Shown here: one piece after another, positions 7,794 to 41,124 of the stretch
Numbering within the stretch: position 1 is the first letter of the stretch
How the letters are laid out: the number at the start of each line of letters is the position of its first letter
Virus record (IMG/VR): IMGVR_UViG_3300037314_000074
Coordinates: 1-42,642 of that record
Source of the DNA: a virus
Length of the DNA: 42,642 bases
Reading direction: 5' to 3' (one strand)
Translations under genes and position numbers: made by a program
The notes under the pieces: generated by a model
Told to the model about the DNA's origin: nothing
Seen by the model: only the letters and a program-made list of their open reading frames with translations
Database searches by the model: none

Positions 7794-7831
7794 AAAAAAT
7801 ACCTGGTATCGTCACAAATACGGTACCAGGT
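7794..7831 (-). terminator. Rho-independent terminator after the portal-scaffold operon
   Basis: On the minus strand a 12-bp stem (ACCTGGTACCGT / ACGATACCAGGT with one G-U pair) is followed by ATTTTTTC. It separates the upstream scaffold-portal operon from the nuclease gene whose ATG follows at 7792. Confidence 0.8.
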
Positions 7832-7844
7832 AATAACTAGGGGT
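7818..7844 (-). promoter_or_regulatory. late-type promoter element, weak -10
   Basis: ACCCCTAGTT occurs on the minus strand at 7844-7835, overlapping the stop codon of the 76-residue gene. The hexamer 11 bases further (CCGTAT) is a poor -10, and the terminator hairpin overlaps it, so activity is uncertain. Confidence 0.4.
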
Positions 7845-8074
7845 TACATAGGATAAAAAATGTAGTACTCTCGTTTTTCACCACCAATAGCTCTAACAAT
7901 ACTACCGTAATAGAGATAACCTTTATCGTAGTACTTGTTAATAAATTCTGTTAACTCCTTATAACTAGATTCAGCACTGGACGGAAAGTTAGACATACCA
8001 CTATTTTTACTATCTAATACTAGTGGTTTAGATTTGGGTTTGGATTTGGTCTTAGGTTGTTGTTCACTAGGCAT
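7844..8074 (-). CDS. hypothetical protein, 76 aa, in the portal operon
   Basis: The N-terminal 30 residues are a flexible Lys/Pro/Ser-rich segment; residues 40-76 look globular (winged-helix-like or a small alpha/beta fold). It shares the start MPSE and the leader AAAGGAGTAATAT with the adjacent scaffold candidate, so the two 5' regions probably arose by duplication. Function unknown; the position suggests a virion or assembly role. Confidence 0.6.
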   Translation of the reverse strand: MPSEQQPKTKSKPKSKPLVLDSKNSGMSNFPSSAESSYKELTEFINKYYDKGYLYYGSIVRAIGGEKREYYIFYPM

Positions 8075-8091
8075 ATATTACTCCTTTATGG

Positions 8092-8763
8092 TTATAGAAA
8101 TAAATCGTCAAATGCACTAAAGTCATCCGAACTTAATTCTTCAAATGTTTTTGGATTTGGTTTAGATTTTTGTTGTTGATTTGAAGGGGGTCCATCAGGT
8201 TGTGGTGCATCTTCTTTAGGTTGATTGCGTTGTTCAACCATCTGTACCCCTTCTTTGAGCTTTTTATATTTATCGCTATTTAAGAAAGTTTTAAGTTTTT
8301 TGGTATCACTAGGTAGAAATTCTCTTAACTCATCTGGCACACCGTGTTTTTCAATGATGTTCTCTTGAATTTCACTTTTTAGCTCATTAAGTTGGGATTT
8401 TAGTTCATTAATATATTCACTATCTGGATTAGATTTTTGTTTCTCTTGTTCTATTTGTTTCTCTTTGTTTTCAATCCATGTAGGAGATTGTTTTCTATAA
8501 TTACTATTTTGTACTTTATTTTCCGAACTTTCTGTACTTTCTGTACTTTCTGTACTTTGTTCTGTACTTTGTTCAGAATCTACCGTAGACTGTGATTCAC
8601 TACCACCATTAGGGTTAAGATTGGTTTGTGATTCAGGTGTTTGTTGCTGAAAATTCTGTTCAAATTGTTTAGCAGATTCTTCTAAACTTACTTCTGTATT
8701 TTGCTGTTGTTCGGTAGATTCTTCTGTATTTTGCTGTTGTTGTTGTTCAAATTCGCTAGGCAT
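8092..8763 (-). CDS. candidate capsid scaffolding protein, 223 aa
   Basis: The protein is highly acidic and Gln/Ser/Glu-rich. Residues 1-85 are low complexity with Gln runs and STE repeats, residues 95-135 look like a coiled coil, and the C-terminus ends in an acidic-aromatic tail (DDFSAFDDLF). This composition and its place next to the portal and capsid genes fit a scaffold, but there is no sequence motif proving it. The STE repeats come from a 9-bp DNA tandem repeat (TACTTTCTG, about 8527-8562), which could vary in copy number. Confidence 0.5.
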   Translation of the reverse strand: MPSEFEQQQQQNTEESTEQQQNTEVSLEESAKQFEQNFQQQTPESQTNLNPNGGSESQSTVDSEQSTEQSTESTESTESSENKVQNSNYRKQSPTWIENKEKQIEQEKQKSNPDSEYINELKSQLNELKSEIQENIIEKHGVPDELREFLPSDTKKLKTFLNSDKYKKLKEGVQMVEQRNQPKEDAPQPDGPPSNQQQKSKPNPKTFEELSSDDFSAFDDLFL

Positions 8764-8775
8764 ATATTACTCCTT

Positions 8776-8990: not shown

Positions 8991-9017
8991 TATCGTAGCC
9001 TTGGACAAACTAAGGGT
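8991..9017 (-). promoter_or_regulatory. late promoter, ACCCTTAGTT type
   Basis: Minus-strand ACCCTTAGTT (9017-9008), an 11-base spacer and ACGATA (8996-8991). It is preceded by GGGTCAACCC, resembling the GGGTTAACCC seen at two other late sites. Confidence 0.6.
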
Positions 9018-9022
9018 TGACC

Positions 9023-10327
9023 CTACCCTAGGGTATTAGAAGACATGTCGTCTAAATTGCCAGATAGTTTACTTTCTATTTCATCTAAAGTCAAATCAGA
9101 CCATATAGTTTCTTTTAATGCTTCTGCCCTGTCTACTCCTAATTCCACTAGTTGAGTAGCTACATTAAGTTGTTGTACTTTCTCTGAAGGGGACGTGGGA
9201 AAATAAGGTTTACTTCTAGTCAAGTTTACATTGTAGGTTTCAGTATCTAAAGGATCTACATTAGATAAGATACCATCTGTATTAGCCATTAACAAAACCT
9301 TTTCTAATAGTGGTTTTAAACCATTGTCTACATAGTTTTTCCATTTAGATTCAGCTTTAGAAATTGTAGCACTATTTTGAATTCTCAGTGTCAGAGATGA
9401 AACATCTTTACCTATATCAGAATTATTTGATTTGATACCCATAGAATCATTAAAATTATCTTTAAGTTGATCGATGAAGTCAAGATGTTCTTTACTAATA
9501 GCGTTAAAATTCAATGTGTCTAATTTACCTGCATCAGCTTCCGGCATTGATGTCAACACTTGAATTCTTTTCTTTAGTTTGTCCAAAGTATCATCTGGAT
9601 CGGGACTAATTATAAAAGGGTTACCAAATAAATGCACATTTTCCAAGGCATCATATACAGCCATTATTTCTGAGACTGCTTGTTTTAAAATAGCATGATT
9701 AAAATCACTGATGCCCCTATCTTCTGAAATCTTAACTCTATTTTTAATTACTTTTGCTGGTACAAATCTATACTCATGGGGTACTACCGTTTTATTTTTA
9801 TTCCAATCAAATTGTTCTGCTACTTTGTATTCTACTAAAGGGTAATTTATGAATTCTTTTTTGTTTAAATCAAATTTAAATACATAGTATGTATCTTCAT
9901 TTTCATCATATATCAACTTTTCTATATTTACTTCATCTAAATTACCTTGATTATCATAATAATAATTAAACTCTCTTTTACTAAAGAAATCAAATTTATA
10001 CAATTCACCAGATAGTCTAACAGTGACTAAAATTTCACCTTCTATTACCCCTGTTTCCCAAATAGAGTAAAGATTAGATTGCAATTCATTTCTATTTACC
10101 ACGTCTTCTAAATATTGTGTTTTCAATTTTTCTTCATTATCATTTGATACATCAATATTTAAACCACCATCAAATAGAAATCTATTCACCTCTTGAATAT
10201 ATCTATTTATTGGGCTAACTATAGGTGGTAAATTTTTCTTTTTATCTTTACTATAAATACTATTGTGATTAGAGCATTCTGGTATGTCCCCTACTAAATA
10301 CCATAATATCTCTGTCAATTCATCCAT
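9023..10327 (-). CDS. portal protein, 434 aa
   Basis: The arrangement fits dodecameric portal proteins through which DNA is packaged. The N-terminal half contains the beta-rich wing; the block near residues 195-240 (KISEDRGISDFNHAILKQAV) matches the conserved portal core that ends in an alpha helix; residues 285-345 hold the helical segment facing the channel. The C-terminal 70 residues form the helical crown. It is slightly short compared with SPP1-type portals. It is divergent from the capsid gene, and each has its own late promoter in the gap. Confidence 0.85.
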   Translation of the reverse strand: MDELTEILWYLVGDIPECSNHNSIYSKDKKKNLPPIVSPINRYIQEVNRFLFDGGLNIDVSNDNEEKLKTQYLEDVVNRNELQSNLYSIWETGVIEGEILVTVRLSGELYKFDFFSKREFNYYYDNQGNLDEVNIEKLIYDENEDTYYVFKFDLNKKEFINYPLVEYKVAEQFDWNKNKTVVPHEYRFVPAKVIKNRVKISEDRGISDFNHAILKQAVSEIMAVYDALENVHLFGNPFIISPDPDDTLDKLKKRIQVLTSMPEADAGKLDTLNFNAISKEHLDFIDQLKDNFNDSMGIKSNNSDIGKDVSSLTLRIQNSATISKAESKWKNYVDNGLKPLLEKVLLMANTDGILSNVDPLDTETYNVNLTRSKPYFPTSPSEKVQQLNVATQLVELGVDRAEALKETIWSDLTLDEIESKLSGNLDDMSSNTLG

Positions 10328-10361: not shown

Positions 10362-10388
10362 ATTATAGGTGTTCAAATAACTAGGGGT
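10362..10388 (-). promoter_or_regulatory. late promoter of the portal gene
   Basis: Minus-strand ACCCCTAGTT (10388-10379), an 11-base spacer and a perfect TATAAT (10367-10362). This is the clearest example of the motif. Confidence 0.75.
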
Positions 10389-10421: not shown

Positions 10422-10448
10422 ACCCCTAGTTACAAAAAGTTACTAACT
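10422..10448 (+). promoter_or_regulatory. late promoter of the capsid operon
   Basis: ACCCCTAGTT at 10422-10431 points at the capsid gene. The -10 region (TACTAACTAAG from 10441) fits the consensus only loosely. With the portal copy it creates a TAACTAGGGG / CCCCTAGTTA inverted repeat. Confidence 0.6.
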
Positions 10449-10490: not shown

Positions 10491-11561
10491 ATGGCAGTTG
10501 ATTACACTCAACTACAAAACGTACTAAATAGAACTTTTAGAGAACCTTTACAAGAATACGTGGTACGTGCAAATCCCGTACTACAAGCTCTAAATAAAAG
10601 GGCTGTAGCTAGTGATAAAATCTATATCAAAGGTGTGGGTGATTCTAGCCATAGTGCTGGTCCAGTAGCAGACGGTACTAGTATTTCTGCTAGTGTTAGC
10701 GATCAAACCACTTACCTTAATCCTACTCTAGATTGGTCTACTTATGTGGCTACTTTTAAAGTTCCCAAACGACTACTAGAACAACTAAATGGTCAACCTG
10801 GTATGCTTGGGAATGTGTTACAAGCCGAGATTTCAAACGCTGCAAAAGATTTGGCAGATCGTATTGCGCAAGATATTTTTGCAGGTGATGTCGCTAATGG
10901 TATCAAAGGTACTATTAGTATGATTGACGATGCCAATACTTATGCTGGTGTTGATAGATCGGTAGGTGCTAATTCTAATTGGCGTGCAACTGTAGTCGAT
11001 CTAGAGGACGGGGGTAGCCCTAGTGAATTATCTACTGGTTCTCTATATCAAGCTGATGAAGACTTTTTTGCTAATAATGGTTATGGTTTTACTGAGCAAC
11101 CGGGTCGATTCACTGCTATTACTGACCGTAAAATCATGACCAAATACAAAGCAATGCTAGAAAGTATTGATTTATCGTCTCTTAGTTCAGCCCATTTTGT
11201 AAACCGGGCTAACTCTAGCGGTAGTCTAGGTTATACTAATGTAGGTTGGATGGGTATCCCTATGCTAAGGGATAGAAATGTTCAATCAGCTAGTGGTGAT
11301 TTGGCAGACTCTGGTCGTCTATATTTCCTAGACATGGACAATATCGAACTAGCTGTTCTTAATCCCGATCCTAATAAGTCTCTAATTCATCAAGTGCAAG
11401 GTTACCGTAGTGCTGAACGTACTAATGGTATGCGTACCTATATTGAAATTCTAGGAAATAACGGGGAATTTGTAGAAGGATACGTTAAAACCTATGTACA
11501 ATTAGTGACTAATGATGCCAAAGCTGCCGGTGTTGTTGTCAAAAACATCAAGAATACTTAA
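10491..11561 (+). CDS. major capsid protein, HK97 fold, 356 aa
   Basis: The protein begins with a short N-arm and an LLEQL-containing spine-helix region near residues 100-135. Its C-terminal part (VQGYRSAERTNGMRTYIEI) resembles the A-domain end of HK97-type capsid proteins. Its length is typical of a subunit without a long cleaved delta domain, which agrees with the absence of a recognisable prohead protease. A GGAGG ribosome binding site precedes the ATG. It opens the plus-strand head operon. Confidence 0.85.
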   Translation: MAVDYTQLQNVLNRTFREPLQEYVVRANPVLQALNKRAVASDKIYIKGVGDSSHSAGPVADGTSISASVSDQTTYLNPTLDWSTYVATFKVPKRLLEQLNGQPGMLGNVLQAEISNAAKDLADRIAQDIFAGDVANGIKGTISMIDDANTYAGVDRSVGANSNWRATVVDLEDGGSPSELSTGSLYQADEDFFANNGYGFTEQPGRFTAITDRKIMTKYKAMLESIDLSSLSSAHFVNRANSSGSLGYTNVGWMGIPMLRDRNVQSASGDLADSGRLYFLDMDNIELAVLNPDPNKSLIHQVQGYRSAERTNGMRTYIEILGNNGEFVEGYVKTYVQLVTNDAKAAGVVVKNIKNT

Positions 11562-14322: not shown

Positions 14323-14369
14323 ATATACATATTACCCTAGGGTTAACCCTTAGTTTACAATATGTATAT
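14323..14369 (+). terminator. long hairpin after the metallopeptidase gene
   Basis: Arms ATATACATATT (14323-14333) and AATATGTATAT (14359-14369) are perfectly complementary and enclose a GGGTTAACCC palindrome. There is no T-run. It overlaps a late promoter and may be a processing site or a bound operator rather than a terminator. Confidence 0.4.
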
Positions 14370-14372
14370 AAT
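14346..14372 (+). promoter_or_regulatory. internal late promoter
   Basis: ACCCTTAGTT (14346-14355), an 11-base spacer and a perfect TATAAT (14367-14372) precede the connector genes from 14403. Confidence 0.7.
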
Positions 14373-14402: not shown

Positions 14403-14609
14403 ATGGCTAAATCTAGAAGTATCATTAATTTTGAAGAAAAATTGAAATCAATTCTCAATAAATCAAAAACGTATGAGGAATTTGAAGCAGAAATGGATAA
14501 ATTGAGAGATGAAATAGAAGGCGACTATTATGAAGACACAAAACTAGATATGATGGGAGATATAGAGGAGGCAGGTATGGCTAAACTTTTTAAAATGCCG
14601 AATGTATAG
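14403..14609 (+). CDS. hypothetical protein, 68 aa
   Basis: A small, charged helical protein, first in the unit behind the internal late promoter. Function unknown; possibly a head decoration or connector accessory. Confidence 0.55.
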   Translation: MAKSRSIINFEEKLKSILNKSKTYEEFEAEMDKLRDEIEGDYYEDTKLDMMGDIEEAGMAKLFKMPNV

Positions 14610-14621
14610 GAGTAAATATTC

Positions 14622-15290
14622 ATGACTGTACGAAATTTAGAAGTAAGACTTACAGAATTAGAAGATGATATATCTCAAAACTTAGGATATAGAGAGTATA
14701 TAGTTAAAGTAGGTAGTACCACTTTAGATCCTAGACCTTATTGTGATATGAAAAAAGTAGAAGACTTTAAACCCGGTACTTTAGACCTATTTAAGCAAAA
14801 TTTACAGGGTAATACCACTCCTATTGGTTTTTTCAGTCTGAATATTTCTAGAACAATCCCAGAAAACATTATACGTACTTACGACTATTGGTATATTATC
14901 CGAGACGGTATTGAATCACAATGCTTACCTGTATCTATTCAAGTAGAGGATGCAAGGTACAAGGTAATGTTGGCTATCGTGAAGAAAAATAAATACAATT
15001 ACGATTTTGATTCTGTGACTCTCAATAACACTACCCTTAATCCTAATGATACTCTATCTGTCAATGTATCTGTCAATAATTATCCTAATTCTGTGATCCA
15101 AATCACATGGAAAGGAGAAATTAGGATAGAAGATGTAGAAGGTAAATTACCTAGTCAAGTAGTCACAGATGGTGATAGTAATGCTTCATTTTCTATTCAA
15201 CTAAAATCTGATGTAGATCCTAAAAGTTTCTATTTTATTTTGAAAATGTTAGAGATAGATTATGAATCTGAAAAAGTAGAGGTAGTATAA
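14622..15290 (+). CDS. hypothetical virion protein, 222 aa
   Basis: Beta-rich in appearance, with a possible Ig-like segment in the C-terminal third (DSVTLNNTTLNPNDTLSVNV near residues 130-149). The stop codon directly abuts the next start. Position among connector genes suggests a head-tail junction or decoration protein. No specific family is recognised. Confidence 0.55.
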   Translation: MTVRNLEVRLTELEDDISQNLGYREYIVKVGSTTLDPRPYCDMKKVEDFKPGTLDLFKQNLQGNTTPIGFFSLNISRTIPENIIRTYDYWYIIRDGIESQCLPVSIQVEDARYKVMLAIVKKNKYNYDFDSVTLNNTTLNPNDTLSVNVSVNNYPNSVIQITWKGEIRIEDVEGKLPSQVVTDGDSNASFSIQLKSDVDPKSFYFILKMLEIDYESEKVEVV

Positions 15291-15704
15291 ATGGAACTGA
15301 GAAAACTACACAATAGTTTAAAATCTAAACTATCAGAATTATTAGATGTATATGCTTGGGATACAACACAATTCACTATTTTACCTAATGAGCCACCTAA
15401 AGGATATCTACAACTAGTACAAACCACCATTGGATCGGTTTATCGCACTGAATGGATGGTAGGTATCGCAGTAGCTAATAGTGATTGGAATGCTTTATGG
15501 GATGATGTATACACTATTCTAGAAAAAATTAATAAATATTTAACTAAACCACCACCATGTATAGATCCTGGTGGTACTTTATCATTAAATGGTAGCATAG
15601 ATATAGAAGTACCTAGCAGTTATTCCAATCAAACAGGTATTAGCAACACAGAAGGTTGGAAAACTGCAATTATCTTTAGTGTAGTAGTACAAGGATCTAG
15701 GTAG
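15291..15704 (+). CDS. tail terminator / minor tail protein candidate, 137 aa
   Basis: Size, alpha/beta pattern and position directly before a gp10-like gene fit the tail terminator or completion proteins that cap the tail tube. The start immediately follows the previous stop. No defining motif is visible. Confidence 0.45.
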   Translation: MELRKLHNSLKSKLSELLDVYAWDTTQFTILPNEPPKGYLQLVQTTIGSVYRTEWMVGIAVANSDWNALWDDVYTILEKINKYLTKPPPCIDPGGTLSLNGSIDIEVPSSYSNQTGISNTEGWKTAIIFSVVVQGSR

Positions 15705-15714
15705 GTGATATATA

Positions 15715-16278
15715 ATGCCTAGAAGACGTAGAAATAATAGTAGTGGTGTTAGTGGTAGTTTTTCTTCAGAGTTTGTATCTACATCGGGAACACCACCTGA
15801 AGAATATTACAAAAAGACTAGACAAGAAATAGCTAATATACTTAATGATACTGCTGCCAATTTAGAATCTGATTTAGTAGCAGCCACACCAGCGGATACA
15901 GGTAATTTAAGACAAGGATGGACTAGTAGATTTGCTAATGAACAAAATTTAACTGCTATCGTATCTCAATCTAAGCAATATTTTCTACCCTTAGAAATGG
16001 GTCGTAAACCAGGGAAAGGTATTAGTCAACAAGGTCAACAATCTGTAAAACGTTGGGCTAGTCGTAAACTAGGATTAGGTGATACAGAAGCTGATAGTTT
16101 CGCATTTCTGTTGTCTCAAAAATATAAACGAGAAGGTAGACCAGCTGAAGGTTTTGCAGGTCTAGCACATCCTGGAGATAATCCAGTATCTAATACCAGT
16201 GATAATATTCAACCTGTATCCGGTGGTCTTATCGATGATGCATTCCAGAATCTTAAAAATAAATTAAATTCTATCTAA
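15715..16278 (+). CDS. HK97 gp10-like head-tail/tail completion protein, 187 aa
   Basis: The pattern ATPADTGNLRQGW near residues 60-72, followed by a YFLPLEMGRKPGKG strand-turn, is typical of HK97 gp10-like proteins that join head and tail. The N-terminal 35 residues are a basic, serine-rich flexible extension. It is the last plus-strand gene before TnpB. Confidence 0.7.
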   Translation: MPRRRRNNSSGVSGSFSSEFVSTSGTPPEEYYKKTRQEIANILNDTAANLESDLVAATPADTGNLRQGWTSRFANEQNLTAIVSQSKQYFLPLEMGRKPGKGISQQGQQSVKRWASRKLGLGDTEADSFAFLLSQKYKREGRPAEGFAGLAHPGDNPVSNTSDNIQPVSGGLIDDAFQNLKNKLNSI

Positions 16279-16374: not shown

Positions 16375-16400
16375 GTTAACAAGTACAATTACATGTTAAC
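16375..16400 (-). ncRNA. hairpin over the tnpB stop codon, candidate omega RNA scaffold end
   Basis: On the minus strand GTTAACATGTA pairs with TACTTGTTAAC (11 positions, one U-U mismatch, 4-base loop). TnpB guide RNAs are known to derive from the 3' end of tnpB and the element end, so this hairpin is a candidate part of the RNA. The element boundary, and therefore the guide, cannot be fixed from sequence alone. Confidence 0.4.
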
Positions 16401-17759
16401 AAATGCACTCTTGATTTTGTCAAGAATGGGACTATCTACCAAAGCTTTGAGAAGAATTCCCAAAGCACCATTAAGATCACGATCCATCCATTCTTGTGTG
16501 CTAGGTGATTTAATCTTTTTACGACCACCTAAGTTCTCGACGATTTCTCCCGTCCATGAAACCGTTTTGCTAGTGTAGGATTCATTTACCAATAAAACAG
16601 TCTTATTACGTTCTTTTGCTTTGTGCAACAAAAACTGTTGAAATCGGTAATGACACCATGTAAGCATAGCTCTTACCGTTTTAGAACTGAGTTTACGACC
16701 AGCTCTAGAAGACATTTTGCTGGTTTCAAAAGTTGGCAGAAGGATGACATCAAACTCTTTAGTTAACCAGTTGGCGACTTGATGGTGAACTTCTTTGATT
16801 AAATTGTCAATCTTCGTTCTCATTCTATCACAGGCTTTTTTAATCCTGCGTTTCCTTCTACTAGTCGCTTTTGATGCCTTAGAGAGTAATTGGTCTAAAT
16901 AATGACATAGACGTTGGATACGGGAGAAGTCTCCATCAGCTAGCTTTCCAAAGCAAGTCGGAGAATAAAAGGTCAAAAAAGTACGCACACCTGGATCTAG
17001 GGCTACAATCCCACCTTGACTCTCAGTGGGAGTTACTTGTGTTTCAGTTGAAACACATAAGAAGTATTGACCTCGATGTAGAATTAATCTTGAATCTTTA
17101 ATGACTTCTGGTAGGCGTTCTCTATAATTTAGAACACCTAATTTGGTATGGTAAACGCCTTTTTCTTTTATTGCACTAGAAGGAACATAGAAAGATTGAA
17201 CTCGATCTTTTTTCGACCTAAACTTCACAAATGACGGTTGACCATTTGTGGTCTTTTTCTTTGCTTCCCTTACCGCTGTACAAGCATCTTTGACTGCGAT
17301 ACTTTTGATTTGGTACGGCACTGTTTTTGCCCATTCTGGAAGATTAGACAGAATACCACCCTTGATTTCCTTCCAGTTTGCTTTCGTATTTGGTTGTTTA
17401 AGATACTCCACTGTCTTATTGTAAACATATCTGGAAACTCCGAACCAGTGCTTTAATATAGCCTTCTGGGTTGTCGTCGGGGTAATACGAATCTTTTTTG
17501 ACTTTTTAATAACTTCGTTTTCCGTGCATTCTACAGCTAAAGATGTGCAGAATTGATAGTAGGTCTTCGGTAAGTTCAGTTTCGGGGGACTTACCTTTAT
17601 TGAGGAGAACCACGATTTCTCCACTACTGGTTTCGATGATAAACTCGATAAGTCGATCCCGATGGGACAGTACAAGTTTGACACTATCTCCTTACAAACA
17701 TCGTTATAGTAAGGTTTTAAGTCTTTTTCGTTTGTAATTGATTTTTCCTGCTTTTGCAT
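16389..17759 (-). CDS. tnpB: TnpB-type RNA-guided nuclease (IS605/IS607 OrfB family), 456 aa
   Basis: An N-terminal extension of about 88 residues precedes the usual TnpB start (IRITPTTTQKAILKHWF, residues 90-106). The RuvC residues appear intact: Asp255 in ALDPGVRTF, Glu345 in LPTFETSKM and Asp426/Asp428 in MDRDLNGA. The zinc-finger cysteines usually lying between the second and third RuvC motifs are missing: SYTSKTVSWTG stands where SKTCSxCG would be expected. No TnpA or serine recombinase is adjacent. The gene is visibly richer in GC than its neighbours, suggesting recent acquisition. TnpB proteins cut DNA next to a short target-adjacent motif using the element-derived RNA. Confidence 0.85.
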   Translation of the reverse strand: MQKQEKSITNEKDLKPYYNDVCKEIVSNLYCPIGIDLSSLSSKPVVEKSWFSSIKVSPPKLNLPKTYYQFCTSLAVECTENEVIKKSKKIRITPTTTQKAILKHWFGVSRYVYNKTVEYLKQPNTKANWKEIKGGILSNLPEWAKTVPYQIKSIAVKDACTAVREAKKKTTNGQPSFVKFRSKKDRVQSFYVPSSAIKEKGVYHTKLGVLNYRERLPEVIKDSRLILHRGQYFLCVSTETQVTPTESQGGIVALDPGVRTFLTFYSPTCFGKLADGDFSRIQRLCHYLDQLLSKASKATSRRKRRIKKACDRMRTKIDNLIKEVHHQVANWLTKEFDVILLPTFETSKMSSRAGRKLSSKTVRAMLTWCHYRFQQFLLHKAKERNKTVLLVNESYTSKTVSWTGEIVENLGGRKKIKSPSTQEWMDRDLNGALGILLKALVDSPILDKIKSAFVNM

Positions 17760-21805: not shown

Positions 21806-21832
21806 ATTTTACACATCAGACAAACTAGGGGT
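21806..21832 (-). promoter_or_regulatory. late promoter of the tail tube operon
   Basis: Minus-strand ACCCCTAGTT (21832-21823), an 11-base spacer and TAAAAT (21811-21806), preceded by GGGTTAACCC overlapping the core. Confidence 0.7.
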
Positions 21833-27617: not shown

Positions 27618-27645
27618 ACCCCTAGTTTATTTATCTATCTAAATA
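27618..27645 (+). promoter_or_regulatory. late promoter of the tape measure operon
   Basis: ACCCCTAGTT (27618-27627), a 12-base spacer and TAAATA within TAAATAATAG (27640 on). Confidence 0.7.
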
Positions 27646-31849: not shown

Positions 31850-31863
31850 AGGAGTGAATTTAA

Positions 31864-32382: not shown

Positions 32383-32384
32383 AA

Positions 32385-34130
32385 ATGGCTATTAGTGAAT
32401 ACGAACGTAGAGCTAGAGAAGCTGCCACATGGAGACAACAAGCAGGTAGATCCGGAATAGAGGATATGAATACTGCTAGTGTTTATTCTAATGCTGCGGG
32501 TGGTAGATCCTCTAGAGCTTTTTATGAGGCAACAAGAGATCCTGTAATTAGTCAGCCTAGTTCTGATTCGTCAGATTCTGAGGATAAAGATAATGATATA
32601 AGAACAGAAGATAGAGTCAGAGAAATAGCATCAAATCGTAGAACTGGTTACCCCAAATCTGAAGAAAAGGGTAGTAGTGTAATTACAGGTCATACTGTGG
32701 GTCAAGATAATGTAACAGGTGAGACTATTATTAATGATGGTCAAGGTAATAATATTCAAGGACCGAGTGATAATCAACCTAAACCTATGAAAAAAGCCAC
32801 AGCTAATAGGGATAATGTGGAACAAGGATCTAGAGATTTAAATATTCAAAATCATAATAGAAGGGTAGAAAGTGGTGGTAAATCTAAAGCAGGTGGTAAA
32901 GTTGAAAAATCAGGGGGACTAACTAAAGGAAAATCTAGTACTGATGAAATGGATCCATGTAAACCAGGTCAAACATCACCAGGGGATGATACAGAAAATG
33001 AACAGGATGAAGAAAATAGTGGTGGTTTAGGTACTGCTGATACTCCCGATCCTCCACCATCTCCTACAGATCCATTAGCTATTGATCCTAATAGAAATCT
33101 TGAAACTTCTACTAGTAGTAGTGATGACGGTGGTGGAAGTGGTGGTGGTAGTAGTACTACTTGGAATGATCCACCATCACCACCACCAGGAGATAACTCA
33201 GGTTACACACCACCACCTGATAATCCAGATAATCCTGGAAATGGTGGTGATGATAATTCTACTCCACCACAAGGCTGTGGGGGAAGTGATGATGACTGTC
33301 AATGGTATAACGTATCTTCATCTGACGATCCTTGTCCTACTGGTACATCTTCTAGAGGATTTGCAGAATTATCTGATGGAAATGTAATGAAACTTTGCTG
33401 CGGTGATAATAGACCAACTGGTGATGGGTGTCCAAACGATCCAACTTCAGCAGGTTGGGAATGTAGAAATGGAGGTTGTAAACAAGTACCAGGTGGTGGT
33501 ATATATGCAACTTTAAGTGAATGCCAAGATAATTGCGGTTCTGATGAATCTGATAATGTTGATCCAAATCCTATACAAAGATATGCTTGTATTTCTGGAG
33601 AGTGTACACAACAAAATGATGGTCCCTTTGAAAATATAGAAGATTGCATAAGCTCAGGTTGTGAATTACCACCATTGGACCAAAGTGGTACTTATACTGT
33701 GAAAGCTGAAACGTCTGGAAGCTGTTTAAATGAGCCAAATTCTTGTAGTAGGAAAGCTAATGATAATTTCTTTTTCGGTTTATATGAATGCGGTGAAAAA
33801 TGTCCTGAGGATTCAAATTTTAATTGTACCCCTGGTACTGTTGCAGGTTCTTCCAAATCAGTTTCTAAAGAGATAAACGGTCCTATAGATAAATTTAGAG
33901 TAGATATGGACGCAGAAGAAGATGAAACATTCGGTAACCCCACTGGAGACATACTTTGCAGAGCTAAACTTGTAGCAGTATTTCCAGATGGGAGTACTAC
34001 TGGAATTATTACTGAATGCGGATCTTTTAGTATTAGTGATTATGGAGATAAACAAACGGCTATACAACATTGTTTGGATAAATCTTTAGGTATAGGATGG
34101 TTTAGTATATCGGTAGATCCCCCCGCATAG
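32385..34130 (+). CDS. cysteine-rich virion protein with low-complexity linker, 581 aa
   Basis: Residues 1-180 are charged and flexible; 190-295 are a Gly/Ser/Asp/Pro linker. Residues 298-480 are cysteine-rich and contain a repeated module: Cys360-x4-Cys365 ... Cys380-x3-Cys384 and Cys402-x4-Cys407 ... Cys421-x4-Cys426, with a more diverged third copy further on. An aromatic residue lies near the first Cys and mid-module. Small disulphide- or metal-stabilised modules of this kind may act in surface binding. The last 100 residues look like a separate beta domain. It lies between tail tip and fibre, so exposure on the virion is likely. Confidence 0.55.
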   Translation: MAISEYERRAREAATWRQQAGRSGIEDMNTASVYSNAAGGRSSRAFYEATRDPVISQPSSDSSDSEDKDNDIRTEDRVREIASNRRTGYPKSEEKGSSVITGHTVGQDNVTGETIINDGQGNNIQGPSDNQPKPMKKATANRDNVEQGSRDLNIQNHNRRVESGGKSKAGGKVEKSGGLTKGKSSTDEMDPCKPGQTSPGDDTENEQDEENSGGLGTADTPDPPPSPTDPLAIDPNRNLETSTSSSDDGGGSGGGSSTTWNDPPSPPPGDNSGYTPPPDNPDNPGNGGDDNSTPPQGCGGSDDDCQWYNVSSSDDPCPTGTSSRGFAELSDGNVMKLCCGDNRPTGDGCPNDPTSAGWECRNGGCKQVPGGGIYATLSECQDNCGSDESDNVDPNPIQRYACISGECTQQNDGPFENIEDCISSGCELPPLDQSGTYTVKAETSGSCLNEPNSCSRKANDNFFFGLYECGEKCPEDSNFNCTPGTVAGSSKSVSKEINGPIDKFRVDMDAEEDETFGNPTGDILCRAKLVAVFPDGSTTGIITECGSFSISDYGDKQTAIQHCLDKSLGIGWFSISVDPPA

Positions 34131-34157
34131 ACCCCTAGTTTTAAAATTGTAATTAAT
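34131..34157 (+). promoter_or_regulatory. late promoter of the fibre genes
   Basis: ACCCCTAGTT (34131-34140) directly after the upstream stop codon, an 11-base spacer and ATTAAT (34152-34157). Confidence 0.65.
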
Positions 34158-34182: not shown

Positions 34183-37100
34183 ATGCCTTTACAATACAGA
34201 TCGACACAAGTACAAAAACCAAGTACAAAACCAACAACAGATAACTCAGGTAACAATTACTGGGTACGACATAGACGGGTTAATTTAGATGGTCAACACA
34301 CAGAATGGTCAAACGCAGTACAAACCAATTTGCCTGCTACCATTACGCCTCAATCGTATTTCGACAATCTTGAATATAAACGAGATGAAATCCTGATTTC
34401 ACCTGACGATGTTGTATACCATATTGTACCTAGGAATTCAGATGCTAAGGGATCTATAACTATAGATTCTTTTGATAGTTCGTGGTCTACTTCTGATAAT
34501 GAAGACACCCAAAGTAGTACTATTAATTCTTTAGATTTTGGGGAATTTTCACCAGGAAATAATCCCACTAAAGTATTTTATGTTTACAATAATGGAGCGC
34601 CTGTTGAGAATTTAACTTTCAATATTGTAGATAACACCGATTTTTCTACTGCTACTCAATATTATGACAGAGTGCAGATAGAATTAGATGGTACCTTTTC
34701 TTATAAAGGTAGTTCCCCTTCTACACTCTACAATAAAACAATTGTATGGGGTAACCCTGCTGATTCTTTTAATACTATACCAGCACAACTACCTAAACGT
34801 AGTTTTGTGAAATTAAGGGTTACTTTGATTGATTTTCCATCTAATGGTTTCCAAGATCCTAATCTAAATCTAGAACTACGTATCACTACAAATAATCGAA
34901 GTTTTAAATTACCAATTAGTCATGATTGGTTTCCTGGATCTGCTAAAGTAGACATGATAGATTTTATGCCTAGAATCTTTAGTAGTGATACTTTTGGTAT
35001 ACTTAAAGTATCTCCTTTCTTAATCGAGCATAAAGGGAGACTTATTGCTAATTATTTCACTAAAGAATTAACCTTAGATAGAACCAATGAGGGAACATGG
35101 GATATTGTAGTTACTCCTAAAGGAAGCATCTTACAATATTCTACGGGATCTACTATTCCCGATTTATTCTTTAAAATTGGCACCGTTACCACTTACGATG
35201 GAACTACAGATATTGATACTACTTATCATTATCCTATAAAACCCGACCAGTGGTCTAAAATGGAAAATGGATCTGTTTCTAGAGGTCTATTTGTAAAAGC
35301 TAATGGTAATACTCTAGAAATTTGTGAATCTCCTAATAATGTCATAGGCGTTTCTCTAGGTAATAATTACTACTGCAATCAAGGTAAAGCATGGGTAGTA
35401 TTAGGAGAAACGATTAGTGCTGGAACGAGAGTAGCACCAGGTGCTAATGGTAAAGCTTATGCCTCACCAGAAGGTAAATTTCTACTTAAAGAAAGTGGAG
35501 AAGCCGATGATGTCAGAGTATTAGAAACAATGGGGTTAACCTCCTATGTGGTACAAAATGAGCCTGACACTAACGCATCAATCAAATTTACGGATCTAGG
35601 TCAAGAATTAAAACCTAGTATTGATTTAGACTTTCTAAAAGATGGAAATCTAGATGGATTAACTTTCACCAGGGCATCTAGTGCCACAGTAGTTAAACCT
35701 AATGGATACATTAAAACGGTTGGTACTGATGTCCCCAGAATAGGTTACGATCCCTTAACTCATGAGTGTAAAGGTTTGTTAATCGAAGAAGGATCTACTA
35801 ATGAATTAAATCATAGTGAAGATTTTACTAATGGTTATTGGACCAAAGATAATATAACCATTAGTACTGAAAATATTTATAATCCATCAGGAGTATCTAC
35901 TAGTCAAAAATTAATAGAAGATACAACTACCAATTTACATAGAATTTTTAAAGGTAGTATACCTGTAACAGCTTCTAGGTTTACAGCTTCTATATTTGTA
36001 AAACCAGCCGGAAGGAATAGTGCAAGTATACGTATACATGATGGAACGGGTACAACATATACATATTTTGATTTGGCATCTGAATCAATAGTCACAAACA
36101 CAGGTAATGGAATGACTACAGATGATGCAGGTATAATTAAATTTCAAAATAATTGGTTTAGAATTCATCTTTCTTTAACTTCTAGTAATTCCCCTTCTGA
36201 TATTTTATTATCTTATACCATAGGAAATGATGCAGGTGAGGTTAATTACACTGGAGATGGATCGTCTGGTGTTTATTTTTGGGGTGCGCAATTAGAGCAA
36301 AAAGATTTCTTAACTTCCTATATTCCTACAACTACATCCACAGCCACAAGATCCGCAGATATAGCATCAGTACAAGGAAATGATTTTTCTAATTCCTTCT
36401 ATCCAGATGAATTTAGCATTTATTATCATTTAACTGATATATTTGAGCTAGAATCAGGTAATAGATTTTTCGTTATTTCAAATGATGGAAATGATAACAA
36501 ATATGTTAATCTTATGCTGAACGCAGGATCGCAATTAAGAAATTATAAATCAGTTTCTGGAAATAAATATTTTCATGATATATCTTTATCAGAGTCTATA
36601 AATACTTTAAGACATGTATTAAGAATAAAACAAGATGTATCTAATATCGATTTTACAGTAAATGATAACAGCACATATAGCTCTACTCATACTTTTACCA
36701 ATAGCGGTATACCTTCACTAGATAGAGTATACTTAGGATCAAATTATGAAGGGACTAATGCCTATATAAACGGATATATAGGAAGATTTATAATATTCCC
36801 TTACAAGCTTTCAGATAACGAAACTTCTAATATTTTATCTGGTGATATCGATTTATCTTTAGAGTTACTTTACCCTGGTGAAGCATATAGCAACATTGCT
36901 CTAAATAACTTAGCAACAGCACCTAATACAGATGTAGCTCAAGCCGCATTATTTTTCCAAGATAATGACATCAAATTTAGGGAACCAGATAATGGTCCCA
37001 TACGTACAATTCCTTCACCTTTTACCGTTTTAGAAAATACCCACACTACCGCATCATTAGCCGATGGTGCTAGTGAAAATTTTAGTTTTGCATTAGGTAG

Positions 37101-37395
37101 AACTGGAACTTTTGTAGATATTACAGCAGATGCAGCATGTTGGGTTGTAGTATATTCAGATCCTACAGCTAGGAGTAATGATAGCTCTAGAAGTCAAAGT
37201 ACAGCACCTGAAAATGGAAGCGGTGTTTTAGCCGAGATTGTGTTTAGTAGTGCTGGTACTTATCGATTCACTCCTACGACTAGTTTTCACAATACAGAAA
37301 ACCCAATCACTGACAATATCTACTTTAAAATCACCAACAATTCTGGAGCTAGTACCACTATTACTCTAGACTTGAGAACAATTAAGCTATTTTAA
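34183..37395 (+). CDS. tail fibre protein with carbohydrate-binding-like modules, 1070 aa
   Basis: Residues 1-480 look like repeated beta-structured virion domains. The segment from about residue 490 (FTRASSATVVKPNGYIKT) to 560 (CKGLLIEEGSTNEL) is the recurring phage fibre motif that precedes a jelly-roll carbohydrate-binding domain, here about residues 560-730. A LamG-like domain follows (about 730-900), then a C-terminal beta domain. Likely receptor recognition or adsorption. Confidence 0.75.
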   Translation: MPLQYRSTQVQKPSTKPTTDNSGNNYWVRHRRVNLDGQHTEWSNAVQTNLPATITPQSYFDNLEYKRDEILISPDDVVYHIVPRNSDAKGSITIDSFDSSWSTSDNEDTQSSTINSLDFGEFSPGNNPTKVFYVYNNGAPVENLTFNIVDNTDFSTATQYYDRVQIELDGTFSYKGSSPSTLYNKTIVWGNPADSFNTIPAQLPKRSFVKLRVTLIDFPSNGFQDPNLNLELRITTNNRSFKLPISHDWFPGSAKVDMIDFMPRIFSSDTFGILKVSPFLIEHKGRLIANYFTKELTLDRTNEGTWDIVVTPKGSILQYSTGSTIPDLFFKIGTVTTYDGTTDIDTTYHYPIKPDQWSKMENGSVSRGLFVKANGNTLEICESPNNVIGVSLGNNYYCNQGKAWVVLGETISAGTRVAPGANGKAYASPEGKFLLKESGEADDVRVLETMGLTSYVVQNEPDTNASIKFTDLGQELKPSIDLDFLKDGNLDGLTFTRASSATVVKPNGYIKTVGTDVPRIGYDPLTHECKGLLIEEGSTNELNHSEDFTNGYWTKDNITISTENIYNPSGVSTSQKLIEDTTTNLHRIFKGSIPVTASRFTASIFVKPAGRNSASIRIHDGTGTTYTYFDLASESIVTNTGNGMTTDDAGIIKFQNNWFRIHLSLTSSNSPSDILLSYTIGNDAGEVNYTGDGSSGVYFWGAQLEQKDFLTSYIPTTTSTATRSADIASVQGNDFSNSFYPDEFSIYYHLTDIFELESGNRFFVISNDGNDNKYVNLMLNAGSQLRNYKSVSGNKYFHDISLSESINTLRHVLRIKQDVSNIDFTVNDNSTYSSTHTFTNSGIPSLDRVYLGSNYEGTNAYINGYIGRFIIFPYKLSDNETSNILSGDIDLSLELLYPGEAYSNIALNNLATAPNTDVAQAALFFQDNDIKFREPDNGPIRTIPSPFTVLENTHTTASLADGASENFSFALGRTGTFVDITADAACWVVVYSDPTARSNDSSRSQSTAPENGSGVLAEIVFSSAGTYRFTPTTSFHNTENPITDNIYFKITNNSGASTTITLDLRTIKLF

Positions 37396-37403
37396 GGATA
37401 CTT

Positions 37404-38213
37404 ATGAAAATACCTAAAACTATAGACAAATCTAATACTAATGGCATGGTGTATCCTGTTAACCTTTATGGCATAGGTAAAAAAGGCAAAGTATATCCAT
37501 CTGTGTACAAGTTTTCTGATTATATTGATATTTCTATTTTAGAATCATGGTACGATTTCACGGATACTTCTACAATAACTACTGATTCTTTCGGTGTAAC
37601 TCAAGTAGAAGATAAATCAAATAATAGCTACACAGCTACTCAAACTGTAGATTCACACAAAGCACCATACGATGGAAACGTAATATCTTTTACAGAAAAT
37701 AAATTTTTAGATTTAAATTTAGATTACATAGCTAATCAAAATCATTTTTGTATAGCAGTATTAAAACAAACAGATTATTTAGATTGTGTATATGGTGCTG
37801 TACTTGGTAACAGTGGTAGCAACTCCCCTCATATTGGTTTTAAAGGGGGTAACCCACCAAGTTCATATAGAATAGATATTTGGGGAAATAATTTCAGACC
37901 TAGTGTAGTAAATTTCGATTTTAGTAATTACAATATCGTCGTATGGGAATGGATCGATGGTAATTCTAGAAAAGTAAAATGCAATGGTTATCTAGAAGGA
38001 TCTACAACTACAAATAAAAGCATAGGTTTACCCGATGGTGGTGGTAGATTAGGAAGTGATGTTGTAGGAAATACTAGCAATTTTGATATAAGAGAAATAA
38101 TTTTCGTTACAGGATCTGAAGTAACAAACGACAATGAAGAAAAACTGGAGTATATCTTAGCATTAAAACATGGATTAATAAATCAATTTAATCCTAACCA
38201 TCCGTATTTATAA
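37404..38213 (+). CDS. LamG/concanavalin-like fibre protein, 269 aa
   Basis: Residues 45-260 carry the pattern LESWYDFTDTSTIT ... VEDKSNNSYTATQ ... REIIFVTG typical of LamG-like phage domains that begin with a WxDxxD motif. The N-terminus (GKKGKVYPSVYKFSDY) is a likely attachment segment. It starts 8 bases after the main fibre gene and is probably a second adhesion protein. Confidence 0.65.
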   Translation: MKIPKTIDKSNTNGMVYPVNLYGIGKKGKVYPSVYKFSDYIDISILESWYDFTDTSTITTDSFGVTQVEDKSNNSYTATQTVDSHKAPYDGNVISFTENKFLDLNLDYIANQNHFCIAVLKQTDYLDCVYGAVLGNSGSNSPHIGFKGGNPPSSYRIDIWGNNFRPSVVNFDFSNYNIVVWEWIDGNSRKVKCNGYLEGSTTTNKSIGLPDGGGRLGSDVVGNTSNFDIREIIFVTGSEVTNDNEEKLEYILALKHGLINQFNPNHPYL

Positions 38214-38226
38214 GGAGATGATATTT

Positions 38227-38586
38227 ATGGCATACATTACTTATTACCTTAAGGCACCAGACGAAGATACAGCTAAACAAGCTGCCAGAAATGCAGACAT
38301 AGGTTTACTAACTGAGGATGATAACGGAGATGAAATATGGTCATCATATAGTAATTCTAAACTAACTGCTATTGATTCAGGTTTTAAAATTTGGAAAACA
38401 GAACCAGAAATAGACAAAAATGGAAATGTAGTAACAGAAGGGGAATTAGAACCAGGTTTCTTTGCAAATCTTAATGTTAAAGATATTCCAGAAGCTCAAA
38501 ATGAATTTGATACACTTATAAATGAAGCTAAAAAATTAGGTATAGAAGTAAGACAACCTACCAAACCTAAGAGAACATTTCTATAA
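38227..38586 (+). CDS. possible fibre-associated or chaperone protein, 119 aa
   Basis: The ATG at 38227 is preferred because the AAGGAG site abuts an earlier ATG at 38218. An acidic, mixed alpha/beta protein of the size of fibre assembly chaperones, in the usual place after fibre genes. No motif confirms this. Confidence 0.5.
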   Translation: MAYITYYLKAPDEDTAKQAARNADIGLLTEDDNGDEIWSSYSNSKLTAIDSGFKIWKTEPEIDKNGNVVTEGELEPGFFANLNVKDIPEAQNEFDTLINEAKKLGIEVRQPTKPKRTFL

Positions 38587-38629: not shown

Positions 38630-39010
38630 TTACCTTTTTTTACCTTTTTTACTGGCTTGTTCGTACCTTTGCCTAGATTCTTCAATCAATTGCTCAGGAT
38701 TATCTAGTACCCATGATAGAAAATAAATAGGCACTGGGTAAGGATAATCCGTGTGATGGGTATAATATTTTAAATAAAGAAAATTTGAAGCAATACCAGG
38801 TGTGACCTTAAATGGAACTTTCCATCCAAACATTAACACTAGAGAATTCATAATCTTTAGGGGTACATGTGTATTTGTTTCTTCATAGATTATATGTGAA
38901 ATTAACTCTCTTTTGACAACTCTTACATTAGGTTTTTTACATTTATTAGATGTGTAAATAGACATTTCATGGATACTAAAATGATATTTATCTATGACAT
39001 AATTAAGCAT
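38630..39010 (-). CDS. hypothetical protein, 126 aa
   Basis: A Tyr/His-rich alpha/beta protein with a basic C-terminal tail (RYEQASKKGKKR). It has its own sigma70-like promoter although it lies between late genes, so it is probably expressed early and may be an inserted accessory gene. No family recognised. Confidence 0.6.
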   Translation of the reverse strand: MLNYVIDKYHFSIHEMSIYTSNKCKKPNVRVVKRELISHIIYEETNTHVPLKIMNSLVLMFGWKVPFKVTPGIASNFLYLKYYTHHTDYPYPVPIYFLSWVLDNPEQLIEESRQRYEQASKKGKKR

Positions 39011-39040
39011 AGTTTAATCCTCTACTTTACTACTATTTTA

Positions 39041-39069
39041 AGTATAACTAAAAATAATGAAACTGTCAA
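39041..39069 (-). promoter_or_regulatory. sigma70-like promoter overlapping the tail hub stop codon
   Basis: Minus-strand TTGACA (39069-39064), a 17-base spacer and TATACT (39046-39041). The TGA of the hub gene lies inside TTGACA. Confidence 0.75.
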
Positions 39070-41063
39070 TAATCAACACGACGTAATAACAATGTTTTTA
39101 CACTATCGCTCAAATCTTGATTGATGGAAATATTATGTACAATATAGTATTTTATGTCGCCATATTTGTCTGTAAATTCAACGCTATCACCAAGTGAAAT
39201 CACATAATGATATGGTAGAACTATTTCTATAGATTTTGCTAGTCCATTGTTTTCCTTTAGAAATCTATGCCCAAATTCCTCTAACTGTTGCATATTGAAA
39301 CAAAAAGGAGCTTCTTTAGATTCTGGCTTACCTTCAAATTCCTCTACTCTATCGTCTTTAACTTCAGTAAATGCATTTATATCTTGTCTAGGTGGTCTTA
39401 CCCATTTACTATTAGGGGGATCCTCGTCTTCTATAACTCTGTCTGGTTGTTTGATAAATGTGTCATCATCTTCAGAATAGGATCCTCTTTTTTCTGTTTT
39501 TTGCCAAACTTGCCCAGCACCGATATAAGATGTTAAACCTAGAGTAGATTTAGTAATTGGCTCGTACTTATCTATTTTTTGTTCTTGTAGTCTATACCCG
39601 AATACTGATTTTGTAAAACCATATCTCTCATGATGGTGCTTAGTTTGCAAATAAATATAATCTTTTTGACAAACATCGGGATTTTTCTGAGGGGTATTTT
39701 CGTATTCATCCTTCTGATACTCGATTTTACCATCATAAAGTTTATAATTACCGCTTTGTTGTCCTGTACCTTGTTCTACTTTTTTACCGTTGACCCATTT
39801 TTCCTCTTTTACTACTAATTTAGCACCACTAATATGATTTTGAGATGTTAAAGAATACGTTTCCTTTTTAACAGTACCCCACTCTACAGGTATAGGGTTA
39901 CTAGTTTTTGTATCAAAGGATCCATCTTTACATTGGTCAGCTTTTTGATCTGAATCTGACCATTGATTTACAGTGGGAACATAACCTTTTTGATGTATTT
40001 CCTCATGTACTTTAGTTTCTCCTACCATCCATTTTGTTGTCTCAGTTTCAGTATAACCCCCTTTAAACCATGGCTTCTTATTTGAAGGAATACTAGTGGT
40101 AGTAGTGTAGGATATTTGCTCCTCTTCCATACTTTTTAACAATGTGAAATTATTGTTAATCTTTATATGGTATATTTCCTCATAGTTATATGCTACTCTA
40201 GGATCTAATTCTAAGATTTGATACCAATCGATTTTATGAATCGTATTTTGTCCATACGCTGGTCTTTTCTTAACTATGATGTCACTATTAGCATTACATC
40301 TTACATCTTTATTTTTAGGAGCATATAGTTTTTGTAAATATTGATACGGCGATTCTGAAGAAAAAGATTGATCGTCAAGATTTGGTAACTTATGACCTAA
40401 TGGGAAACTTTTTGTTTTTAGTCCATGAGTTTTAGCATATATTTCAGCAGCTTTACCTGCATGAGTAGGGCGTGGACCACAATATAGATCAATAGGTGTT
40501 CTATTCCTTTCACCAAAATAATTCAACTCATCTCCTATGATAATGTCCATGTTTAATGTTCCATCTGTATCAGAGTATATTTTAGGAGATGTTATGACAT
40601 AAAATTTACCTAAACCTAGACAGTTTTCTGTACCATCCATATTATACCAGCATTGTTTAATCTCTATAAATCTACCTACATTAACTTTTATATCTTTGGG
40701 GACACCAGTTAAAGATATATCCCCTTCTATAGCACCACTAATGGGGAAAGATAACGAAAAATTTACCAAATAATCAGACAGATCGTCCCCATTGACTACT
40801 TTTACCTTAGTTTTAGGTACTGTTACTACTAATGAATAATCTTGTTTAGTAGTAAGTTTTGAAAGTGCTTTGGGATTAAAATCTTGATTATCTGGTTCTG
40901 TAGATCCTGTATTTTCGTCGGGTGCTTTTTCTACTTCTTGTATCTCAGGATCTATTGGTTGAAATAGATCACCTGTAAGATTTAAACCATTATTTAAGCT
41001 TTCTGGTGAGTAAGCATTTAGTGATAATAAGTTTTCATTTCTTAATTTACCTGTTATATTCAT
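39066..41063 (-). CDS. tail hub protein, gp27/Tal-like, 665 aa
   Basis: After a flexible N-terminus (residues 1-75), residues 85-200 show the beta-barrel pattern of tail hub domain 1 (FSLSFPISGAIEGDISLTG, then GKFYVITSPKIY). Residues 300-560 are a large Thr/Lys/Glu-rich insertion. The C-terminal segment (IEIVLPYHYVISLGDSVEF ... LLLRRVDY) matches the final barrel of hub proteins. Hubs form a trimer at the tail tip. It is on the opposite strand to the tape measure, which is unusual. Confidence 0.65.
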   Translation of the reverse strand: MNITGKLRNENLLSLNAYSPESLNNGLNLTGDLFQPIDPEIQEVEKAPDENTGSTEPDNQDFNPKALSKLTTKQDYSLVVTVPKTKVKVVNGDDLSDYLVNFSLSFPISGAIEGDISLTGVPKDIKVNVGRFIEIKQCWYNMDGTENCLGLGKFYVITSPKIYSDTDGTLNMDIIIGDELNYFGERNRTPIDLYCGPRPTHAGKAAEIYAKTHGLKTKSFPLGHKLPNLDDQSFSSESPYQYLQKLYAPKNKDVRCNANSDIIVKKRPAYGQNTIHKIDWYQILELDPRVAYNYEEIYHIKINNNFTLLKSMEEEQISYTTTTSIPSNKKPWFKGGYTETETTKWMVGETKVHEEIHQKGYVPTVNQWSDSDQKADQCKDGSFDTKTSNPIPVEWGTVKKETYSLTSQNHISGAKLVVKEEKWVNGKKVEQGTGQQSGNYKLYDGKIEYQKDEYENTPQKNPDVCQKDYIYLQTKHHHERYGFTKSVFGYRLQEQKIDKYEPITKSTLGLTSYIGAGQVWQKTEKRGSYSEDDDTFIKQPDRVIEDEDPPNSKWVRPPRQDINAFTEVKDDRVEEFEGKPESKEAPFCFNMQQLEEFGHRFLKENNGLAKSIEIVLPYHYVISLGDSVEFTDKYGDIKYYIVHNISINQDLSDSVKTLLLRRVDY

Positions 41064-41097
41064 ATTTATTCTAACCTTCTATTACTTTATCCCTATT

Positions 41098-41124
41098 ATT
41101 AATAGGGATAAAATAACTAGGGGT
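41098..41124 (-). promoter_or_regulatory. late promoter of the tail hub gene
   Basis: Minus-strand ACCCCTAGTT (41124-41115), an 11-base spacer and ATTAAT (41103-41098), within a small ATCCCTAT / AATAGGGAT hairpin. Confidence 0.65.

Follow-up and report, generated by a model that had tools for sequence, protein, structure and literature searches.

The middle promoters of phage T4, which involve sigma appropriation by AsiA, have a host-type –10 element and, in place of a –35 element, the MotA box; in the passages of the literature that we surveyed, this box is centred at –30 and lies at –35 to –26 when it is 13 bp upstream of the –10 (PMC2988021). Those passages also describe T4 late transcription, which uses gp55 and gp33 as a split sigma and in which the small protein gp33 is called a sigma-4 mimic (PMC2988020), the small RinA or Ltr proteins of Gram-positive phages, which activate late packaging and assembly genes (PMC13123087), and the start-associated sequences of cluster K mycobacteriophages, which are repeated, asymmetric, and mostly one-way words before gene starts (PMC3203893). 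Here, we examined the decamer ACCCYTAGTT (the box) in IMG/VR record IMGVR_UViG_3300037314_000074. We analyzed positions 1 to 42,642 of this viral record, and this whole stretch of 42,642 nt is called the window from here on. An earlier sequence-only reading of the window had proposed that the box, with an AT-rich –10 element 11 bases later, is a phage-specific late promoter.

In the window, 11 bp separate the end of the box from the best –10, a spacing that may be comparable to that of the T4 middle promoters; the genes concerned are late rather than middle genes. According to the passages surveyed, the MotA box tolerates changes and an excellent –10 is required at almost every T4 middle promoter, whereas the window box is nearly invariant and is followed by a good –10 at only three of nine sites. 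The same passages describe T4 late promoters without an upstream element, which the window has. General scans of the window gave no match to MotA or AsiA, although they included no search aimed at these families. By contrast with the RinA/Ltr systems, many boxes head many units in the window, and the cluster K sequences stand immediately upstream of start codons, whereas the window box is at a variable distance of 42–59 nt. We consider it likely that the decamer is the upstream recognition element of late promoters and is read by a host polymerase that a phage factor redirects. The decamer and its placement are confirmed, and the late-promoter reading is well supported as far as sequence alone can support it.

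The decamer and the genes that follow it

There are nine exact copies of ACCCYTAGTT on the two strands of the window, compared with a mean of 0.26 (maximum 2) in 100 dinucleotide shuffles and a mean of 0.2 (maximum 2) in 200 Markov-2 simulations. All nine were at the positions and on the strands given by the sequence-only reading. Each is on the coding strand, 42–59 nt before an ATG that opens an open reading frame (ORF), and this band takes up 1.03% of strand positions for the 49 listed starts. That reading had named equal frequency in the wrong orientation as evidence against itself; no copy is on the non-coding strand and the motif read backwards does not occur in the window. Only two copies with one mismatch were found in the window (at 3201 and 34811) and the box is therefore nearly invariant. 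We also counted all 9- and 10-letter words upstream of the 50 automatically called window genes, with no motif given in advance. The enrichment that the reading had predicted was recovered by this unseeded count, which ranked ACCCCTAGTT first (7 upstream regions versus 0.005 expected; corrected p = 1e-11, the floor of the calculation). Enrichment before virion units, on the coding strand only, is the pattern that a phage-specific late promoter would be expected to leave. The nine sites are as follows.

10379–10388, minus strand: putative late box ACCCCTAGTT; TATAAT at 10362–10367; 51 nt before the portal gene 9023–10327.
10422–10431, plus strand: putative late box ACCCCTAGTT, divergent to the box at 10379; no clear –10; 59 nt before the capsid gene 10491–11561.
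14346–14355, plus strand: putative late box ACCCTTAGTT, preceded by ACCCTAGGGTTA; TATAAT at 14367–14372; 47 nt before the connector unit 14403–16278.
21823–21832, minus strand: putative late box ACCCCTAGTT; TAAAAT at 21806–21811; 56 nt before the unit 21766–18544.
27618–27627, plus strand: putative late box ACCCCTAGTT; TAAATA at 27640–27645 (12 nt after the box); 53 nt before the tape-measure unit 27681–34130.
34131–34140, plus strand: putative late box ACCCCTAGTT; ATTAAT at 34152–34157; 42 nt before the tail-protein unit 34183–38586.
41115–41124, minus strand: putative late box ACCCCTAGTT; ATTAAT at 41098–41103, within a hairpin; 51 nt before the virion gene 39066–41063.
9008–9017, minus strand: putative late box ACCCTTAGTT; ACGATA at 8991–8996; 43 nt before the unit 8964–7844.
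7835–7844, minus strand: decamer that overlaps the end of ORF 7844–8074; no –10; precedes gene 7792.

PHROG scans of 40 window proteins identified portal, capsid, head morphogenesis, connector, terminase large subunit, tape measure, tail, and further virion genes; tail tube, fibre, and hub are names taken over from the sequence-only reading, and transcription units were inferred from strand and spacing. Eight of the nine boxes head virion or packaging units, one of the eight by synteny only, and every unit with recognized virion or packaging genes is headed by a box. The portal gene matches phrog_20475 (virion structural protein) and phrog_533 (portal protein), the capsid gene phrog_9953, the connector unit phrog_31306 and phrog_5, and the tape-measure unit phrog_1533. 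The unit 21766–18544 contains a virion gene at 21023–21766 (tail tube), genes at 20339–20950 and 20064–20267, and the terminase large subunit, with matches to phrog_2729 (virion structural protein) and phrog_2 (terminase). The tail-protein unit (fibre) matches phrog_5939 (tail protein) and the gene 39066–41063 (tail hub) matches phrog_30923 (virion structural protein). The unit 8964–7844 has no named virion family and matches phrog_33580 (unknown function). Its genes 8092–8763 and 7844–8074 have relatives in the portal–capsid interval of two related records described below (G002 and L049), and 8092–8763 also has one in Acaryochloris phage A-HIS1. The ninth site, at 7835, is doubtful as a promoter because a strong hairpin and T run resembling an intrinsic terminator (z –4.5) directly follow the decamer, and one chance copy would not be surprising with 0.2 expected. 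Position 5 of the box is T only at 9008 and 14346, and upstream of both these boxes is the palindrome ACCCTAGGGT (9025–9034 and 14334–14343), which occurs nowhere else in the window.

The second element and the TTGACA promoters

The hexamers that had been proposed as –10 elements 11 nt after the decamer are literally present (TATAAT at 10379 and 14346, TAAAAT at 21823, ATTAAT at 34131 and 41115, ACGATA at 9008), with TAAATA beginning 12 nt after the box at 27618. Using a –10 scoring matrix, the summed score at one fixed offset has a single peak at 11 nt (shuffle p = 0.046) and the best score within 10–13 nt of the box gave a shuffle p of 0.027. Convincing hexamers occur only at 10379, 14346, and 21823, and the sites at 10422 and 7835 have none. 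Over the 35 nt downstream of the window boxes, total conservation was higher than in any of 1000 row shuffles (p 0.026 for the largest single column), whereas conservation upstream is weaker (total p 0.01). The strongest downstream columns include those of A and T within the –10 and a purine pair at positions 32–33 from the box start, which would be near the expected transcript start. The second element in the window can be described as AT-rich/TAGR at a nearly fixed distance from the box.

Two further claims, that no TTGACA is at the proper distance from a decamer and that small, metabolic, and regulatory genes use TTGACA promoters instead, were borne out. None of the 41 TTGACA copies in the window is placed as the –35 of a decamer site. 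The pattern TTGAC(A/T)-N16–18-TANNNT has 21 matches in the window, of which 11 are no more than 150 nt from a listed start. Non-virion genes follow 10 of these 11; the exception is TTGACT at 9094, before 8964. One such promoter is at the start of the ribonucleotide reductase block.

21925–21930, plus strand: TTGACA-N18-TATATT, 33 nt before gene 21987.

In five TTGACA promoters (17920, 22212, 25155, 25951, and 42306) CCC precedes TTGACA, and four of the five run on to GAAAATAG or GAAGATAG after the –10, which makes them a second stereotyped promoter class. A transposase gene (16389–17759, minus strand, phrog_506) between the connector and terminase blocks has a TTGACA promoter 137 nt upstream.

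The lack of TTGACA bears on a different role for the box, in which a phage repressor or elongation factor binds it as an operator or stoperator and silences late units that have ordinary promoters. The sites are exact, asymmetric, and oriented, and three of them have an extra inverted half, GGGT(T/C)AACCC, of the kind that a dimeric binder might leave. We nevertheless regard this as improbable. With no TTGACA at –35 distance near any box, the ordinary promoter is missing; in addition, no repressor was found among the window proteins scanned, nor any integrase besides the transposase, and a fixed second element is more in keeping with a core promoter.

Boxes at the same genes in related phages

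The best phage match of the window is A-HIS1 for the capsid (48%), portal (33%), terminase (45%), and one virion protein (25%). The tape measure is matched first by Prochlorococcus phages, over 23% of its length, and A-HIS1 ranks lower. Because A-HIS1 best matches these four virion and packaging proteins, we take the window to be from a cyanophage-type siphovirus, which probably infects cyanobacteria. IMG/VR records with related capsids are L049 (61%), L050 (here G002; 60%, 52,374 bp), and L051 (here G003; 54%, 49,161 bp), and no capsid relative was found in the bacterial genomes searched. A search with the terminase added the fragments L062, L064, L065, and L066 and two distant matches; terminase matches L068 and L069 (22–24% identity), together with L047 and L048, were entered into a word count only. 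Relatives of the A-HIS1 polymerase gamma, primase, and flap endonuclease (FEN) occur in both G002 and G003, whereas the window has none. Thus, the window is an incomplete genome.

The sequence-only reading had suggested that relatives be searched for the same motif. The decamer is absent from G001, G003, and A-HIS1 and has a single copy in G002; other boxes are found in relatives instead. Among viral contigs, ACCCCTAGTT-N11-TAWWAT has 35 loci, each with one decamer in the stretch fetched, which we took as chance. No title or abstract opening among the literature surveyed names this family of boxes.

In A-HIS1 the box is ACCATATGAT, with 10 exact copies versus 0.055 expected, and the looser ACCWTAWGAT has 14 versus 0.38. 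All 14, that is the 10 exact copies and 4 that fit the looser pattern, are 27–51 nt before the start of an ORF of at least 60 amino acids, and counterparts of the portal, capsid, tube, tape measure, and fibre are among the genes that follow. Copies with two mismatches were set aside, and seven one-mismatch copies (1043, 2037, 13552, 14206, 48488, 53099, and 53612) were dropped because they were within ORFs, overlapped a start codon, or faced away from the closest start. The annotated starts of ORF063, ORF080, and ORF089 in A-HIS1 (L009/L010, FN436268.1) are an ATG inside the ACCATATGAT box or its complement (34385, 45363, and 49193); likelier starts for the portal ORF063 and for ORF089 are 37 and 42 nt downstream of the box.

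In G003, TACCTAGCCTAA has three exact copies versus 0.015 expected, plus two near copies. These precede the portal, capsid, tube, tape measure, and 31864-type genes, with AWARG 10 nt later in all five; sites 2281 and 7736 were left out of the alignment. G002 has three exact copies of CCTAGGCCACT versus 0.05 expected, and eight of the looser CCWRGGCMWCT versus 0.9 (maximum 5 in 200 simulations). Its sites before the portal, capsid, tube, tape measure, and 31864-type gene all fit box-N10-YT. Of the further CCWRGGCMWCT sites, 5528 was aligned, and 38390 and 43596 (before the connector gene) are outside the alignment; site 40856, which does not fit this pattern, was dropped. The similar ACCCTGGGCY in L049 has three copies versus 0.07 expected, before the portal, the capsid, and the gene after the capsid. 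The G002 and L049 boxes are weaker than those of A-HIS1 and G003. A limitation of these comparisons is that the consensus patterns of the relatives were written after the sites were seen and only the upstream word count is unseeded. In this count the top word is the box in A-HIS1 (corrected p 2.6e-12, the calculation floor) and in G003 (2e-6), and the control phage S-EIV1 has no significant upstream word.

As in the window, conservation downstream of the boxes exceeded all 1000 row shuffles in each of the other sets (A-HIS1, G002 with L049, and G003). With ORFs taken from the sequence, the distance from box to start varies (42–59 nt in the window, 27–51 in A-HIS1, 39–70 at six sites in G002, 16–37 at five sites in G003), whereas box and second element keep a nearly constant spacing within every set, 15–17 nt in A-HIS1. 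Between relatives, both the second element and this spacing change. That the spacing to the second element is nearly constant and the distance to the start variable argues for a transcription signal rather than a translation signal. We therefore find it very improbable that the box acts in a leader RNA or in translation, as the cluster K sequences might suggest. It is upstream of starts, as a leader signal would be, and some leaders fold strongly (41115, z –4.0; A-HIS1 55597, z –5.1). However, mean folding z is –0.83 in the window, –1.05 in A-HIS1, –0.18 in G002, and –1.02 in G003, and hairpins are not general.

These distances also raise the question of whether the box itself is the downstream element, a –10 or initiation element recognized by an altered holoenzyme, in which case transcripts would begin with the conserved stretch that follows the box. 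The closeness of the boxes to starts in G003 and A-HIS1 agrees with this, the A-HIS1 box contains TATGAT, which is near TATAAT, and the second element is no canonical –10 in A-HIS1, G002, or G003. Only 16 nt separate the G003 box from the start codon at the portal and 31864-type genes, and therefore it cannot stand 11–17 nt upstream of a –10 there; the G003 box is either nearer the transcription start or in a different role. By contrast, the window box (CCCCTAGTT) is unlike the usual –10, the most –10-like offset is 11 nt after it, and the only sigma-like protein that we found (see below) has region 4 and no region 2. On balance we consider this explanation unlikely. The decamer may stand in for the –35, but good –10 hexamers are scarce in the window and the geometry is not kept in G003.

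Host alternative sigma factors could also read such promoters with no phage factor. Cyanobacteria have several such sigmas, and the viruses resemble cyanophages. However, the boxes differ between phages whose capsids are 48–61% identical to that of the window. The host is known for A-HIS1 alone, the only isolated relative with a sequence found here, which infects Acaryochloris marina MBIC11017, so a change of host could explain part of these differences. We judge this to be quite improbable, and prefer the reading of the decamer as a late promoter element that depends on a phage factor.

A candidate reader of the box

The sequence-only reading had suggested a phage-encoded sigma factor or activator. 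This is plausible given that the boxes of relatives differ and that three relatives encode a sigma-4-like protein, although none was found in the window. Pfam Sigma70_r4 has one match each in G002 (91 amino acids), G003 (76 amino acids), and A-HIS1 (ORF012, 112 amino acids), with PF04545 scores of 30.5, 19.8, and 13.1 bits, respectively, against a cut-off of 24.1. There is no match in the window, in L049, or in the short records behind L062, L064, L065, and L066. The G002 protein matches phrog_351 (RNA polymerase sigma factor, E 1.9e-8) and, weakly, phrog_57 (terminase small subunit, E 0.0043), and a profile of the three proteins finds region 4 of RpoD/SigA in the PDB (best E 4.6e-5). The RpoD recognition helix TRERIRQIEAKALRKLR aligns with SPKRISALREDALNKLR in G002, NRSTVEASLSRATQKLL in G003, and TEGNLNVSREKLFKNLR in A-HIS1. 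The positions that we take to contact the –35 element in RpoD mostly differ from RpoD and among the three proteins, as expected if each were to read a different box. The gene adjoins FEN in G002 and G003 and is two genes from polymerase gamma in A-HIS1. Thus, these genes appear to sit in the kind of region that the window lacks; this is co-occurrence and not proof.

Searches with tblastn gave no match for the G002 protein and only A-HIS1 itself for the A-HIS1 protein; viral contigs searched with the G002 protein returned only its own contig. Region 2 (PF04542) was found in none of five records, two of them incomplete, whereas 11 of 14 control genomes were positive, and these records do not appear to encode a complete sigma-70 factor. 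A T7-like polymerase was not detected in the five records, but the controls also gave no signal, so this is no proof of absence. Sigma regions are on separate polypeptides in SigO-RsoA of Bacillus subtilis; that is a cellular pair, whereas no region-2 partner was found in the five phage records examined. A small conserved gene downstream of FEN, with a YTRxDLIS motif, is present in G002 (L059:2669–3028, 119 amino acids) and G003 (L060:2583–2915, 110 amino acids). The motif makes its protein a possible region-2-like partner, but the protein has no Pfam match over the cut-off (weak DUF3337, E 0.11), no PHROG match, no sigma among the 13 PDB sequences listed, and a poor model (pLDDT 57.7). The likeness to T4 gp33 is that of a small phage protein that may take the place of sigma domain 4. 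In the passages surveyed, gp33 recognizes no DNA sequence and has no discernible sigma similarity, whereas the protein of the relatives has sigma-4 sequence similarity. If it is the reader, it would be a DNA-reading version of gp33, and we do not claim membership of the T4 families.

On the reading that we prefer, the unmodified host polymerase would transcribe early genes, using TTGACA promoters. A phage factor encoded in the early or replication region would then bind the box and redirect the host cyanobacterial RNA polymerase, and factor-dependent transcription would start some 24 nt downstream of the box, which in the window phage is at the TAGG/TAGA purines. The factor could be a stand-alone sigma-region-4-like protein that takes over the DNA contact of region 4 of the host primary sigma, and box and recognition helix would have diverged together in each phage lineage. 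The different boxes at the same genes in relatives suggest that every virus of the group has a box of its own and a protein of its own to read it. We hold only tentatively the more specific idea that a phage sigma region 4 (a helix-turn-helix) displaces that of the host and reads a private box, with box and helix co-diverging to give each phage its own late-promoter code.

Several observations weigh against the reading. Only three of the window sites have convincing –10 hexamers and the capsid site has none. The box is not among the top unseeded words in G002, the best such word in L049 is marginal (0.045), which goes against uniformity, and no box was seen by eye at seven starts inspected in L065. 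The 16-nt distance in G003 does not fit, and if TAGAnT is read as the –10 in A-HIS1 the leaders would be only a few nt. As for the candidate factor, it is lacking in the window, its G003 and A-HIS1 members are below the Pfam cut-off, the G002 model is poor (pLDDT 58), and co-occurrence is the sole link between protein and box.

Virion genes found in G002 run one way, except for the 39066-type gene. In the window, the portal block and the tube–terminase block run opposite to the capsid block; in A-HIS1 the inverted genes are the tape measure and fibre. Every inverted block has its own box. Because each block would have its own promoter, late blocks may be able to invert or reorder without losing late control. 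To our knowledge, late transcription factors are known for few cyanophages, and the literature passages surveyed name none for this phage group. The same genes have visibly different control boxes within one phage family, with a small candidate factor in three members. This would let the co-change of a transcription factor and its sites be measured and could provide orthogonal late promoters for cyanobacteria.

Two other repeated words were seen in the relatives. TTATCGTGTC has four copies in G002, whose clade includes L062, at 44774, 45044, and 45179 on the minus strand and at 47611 on the plus strand. L065 and L066 are rich in the palindrome GCGATCGC, the cyanobacterial HIP1 octamer, with 12 copies on the two strands of L065 versus 0.75 expected, which points to a cyanobacterial host for that clade.

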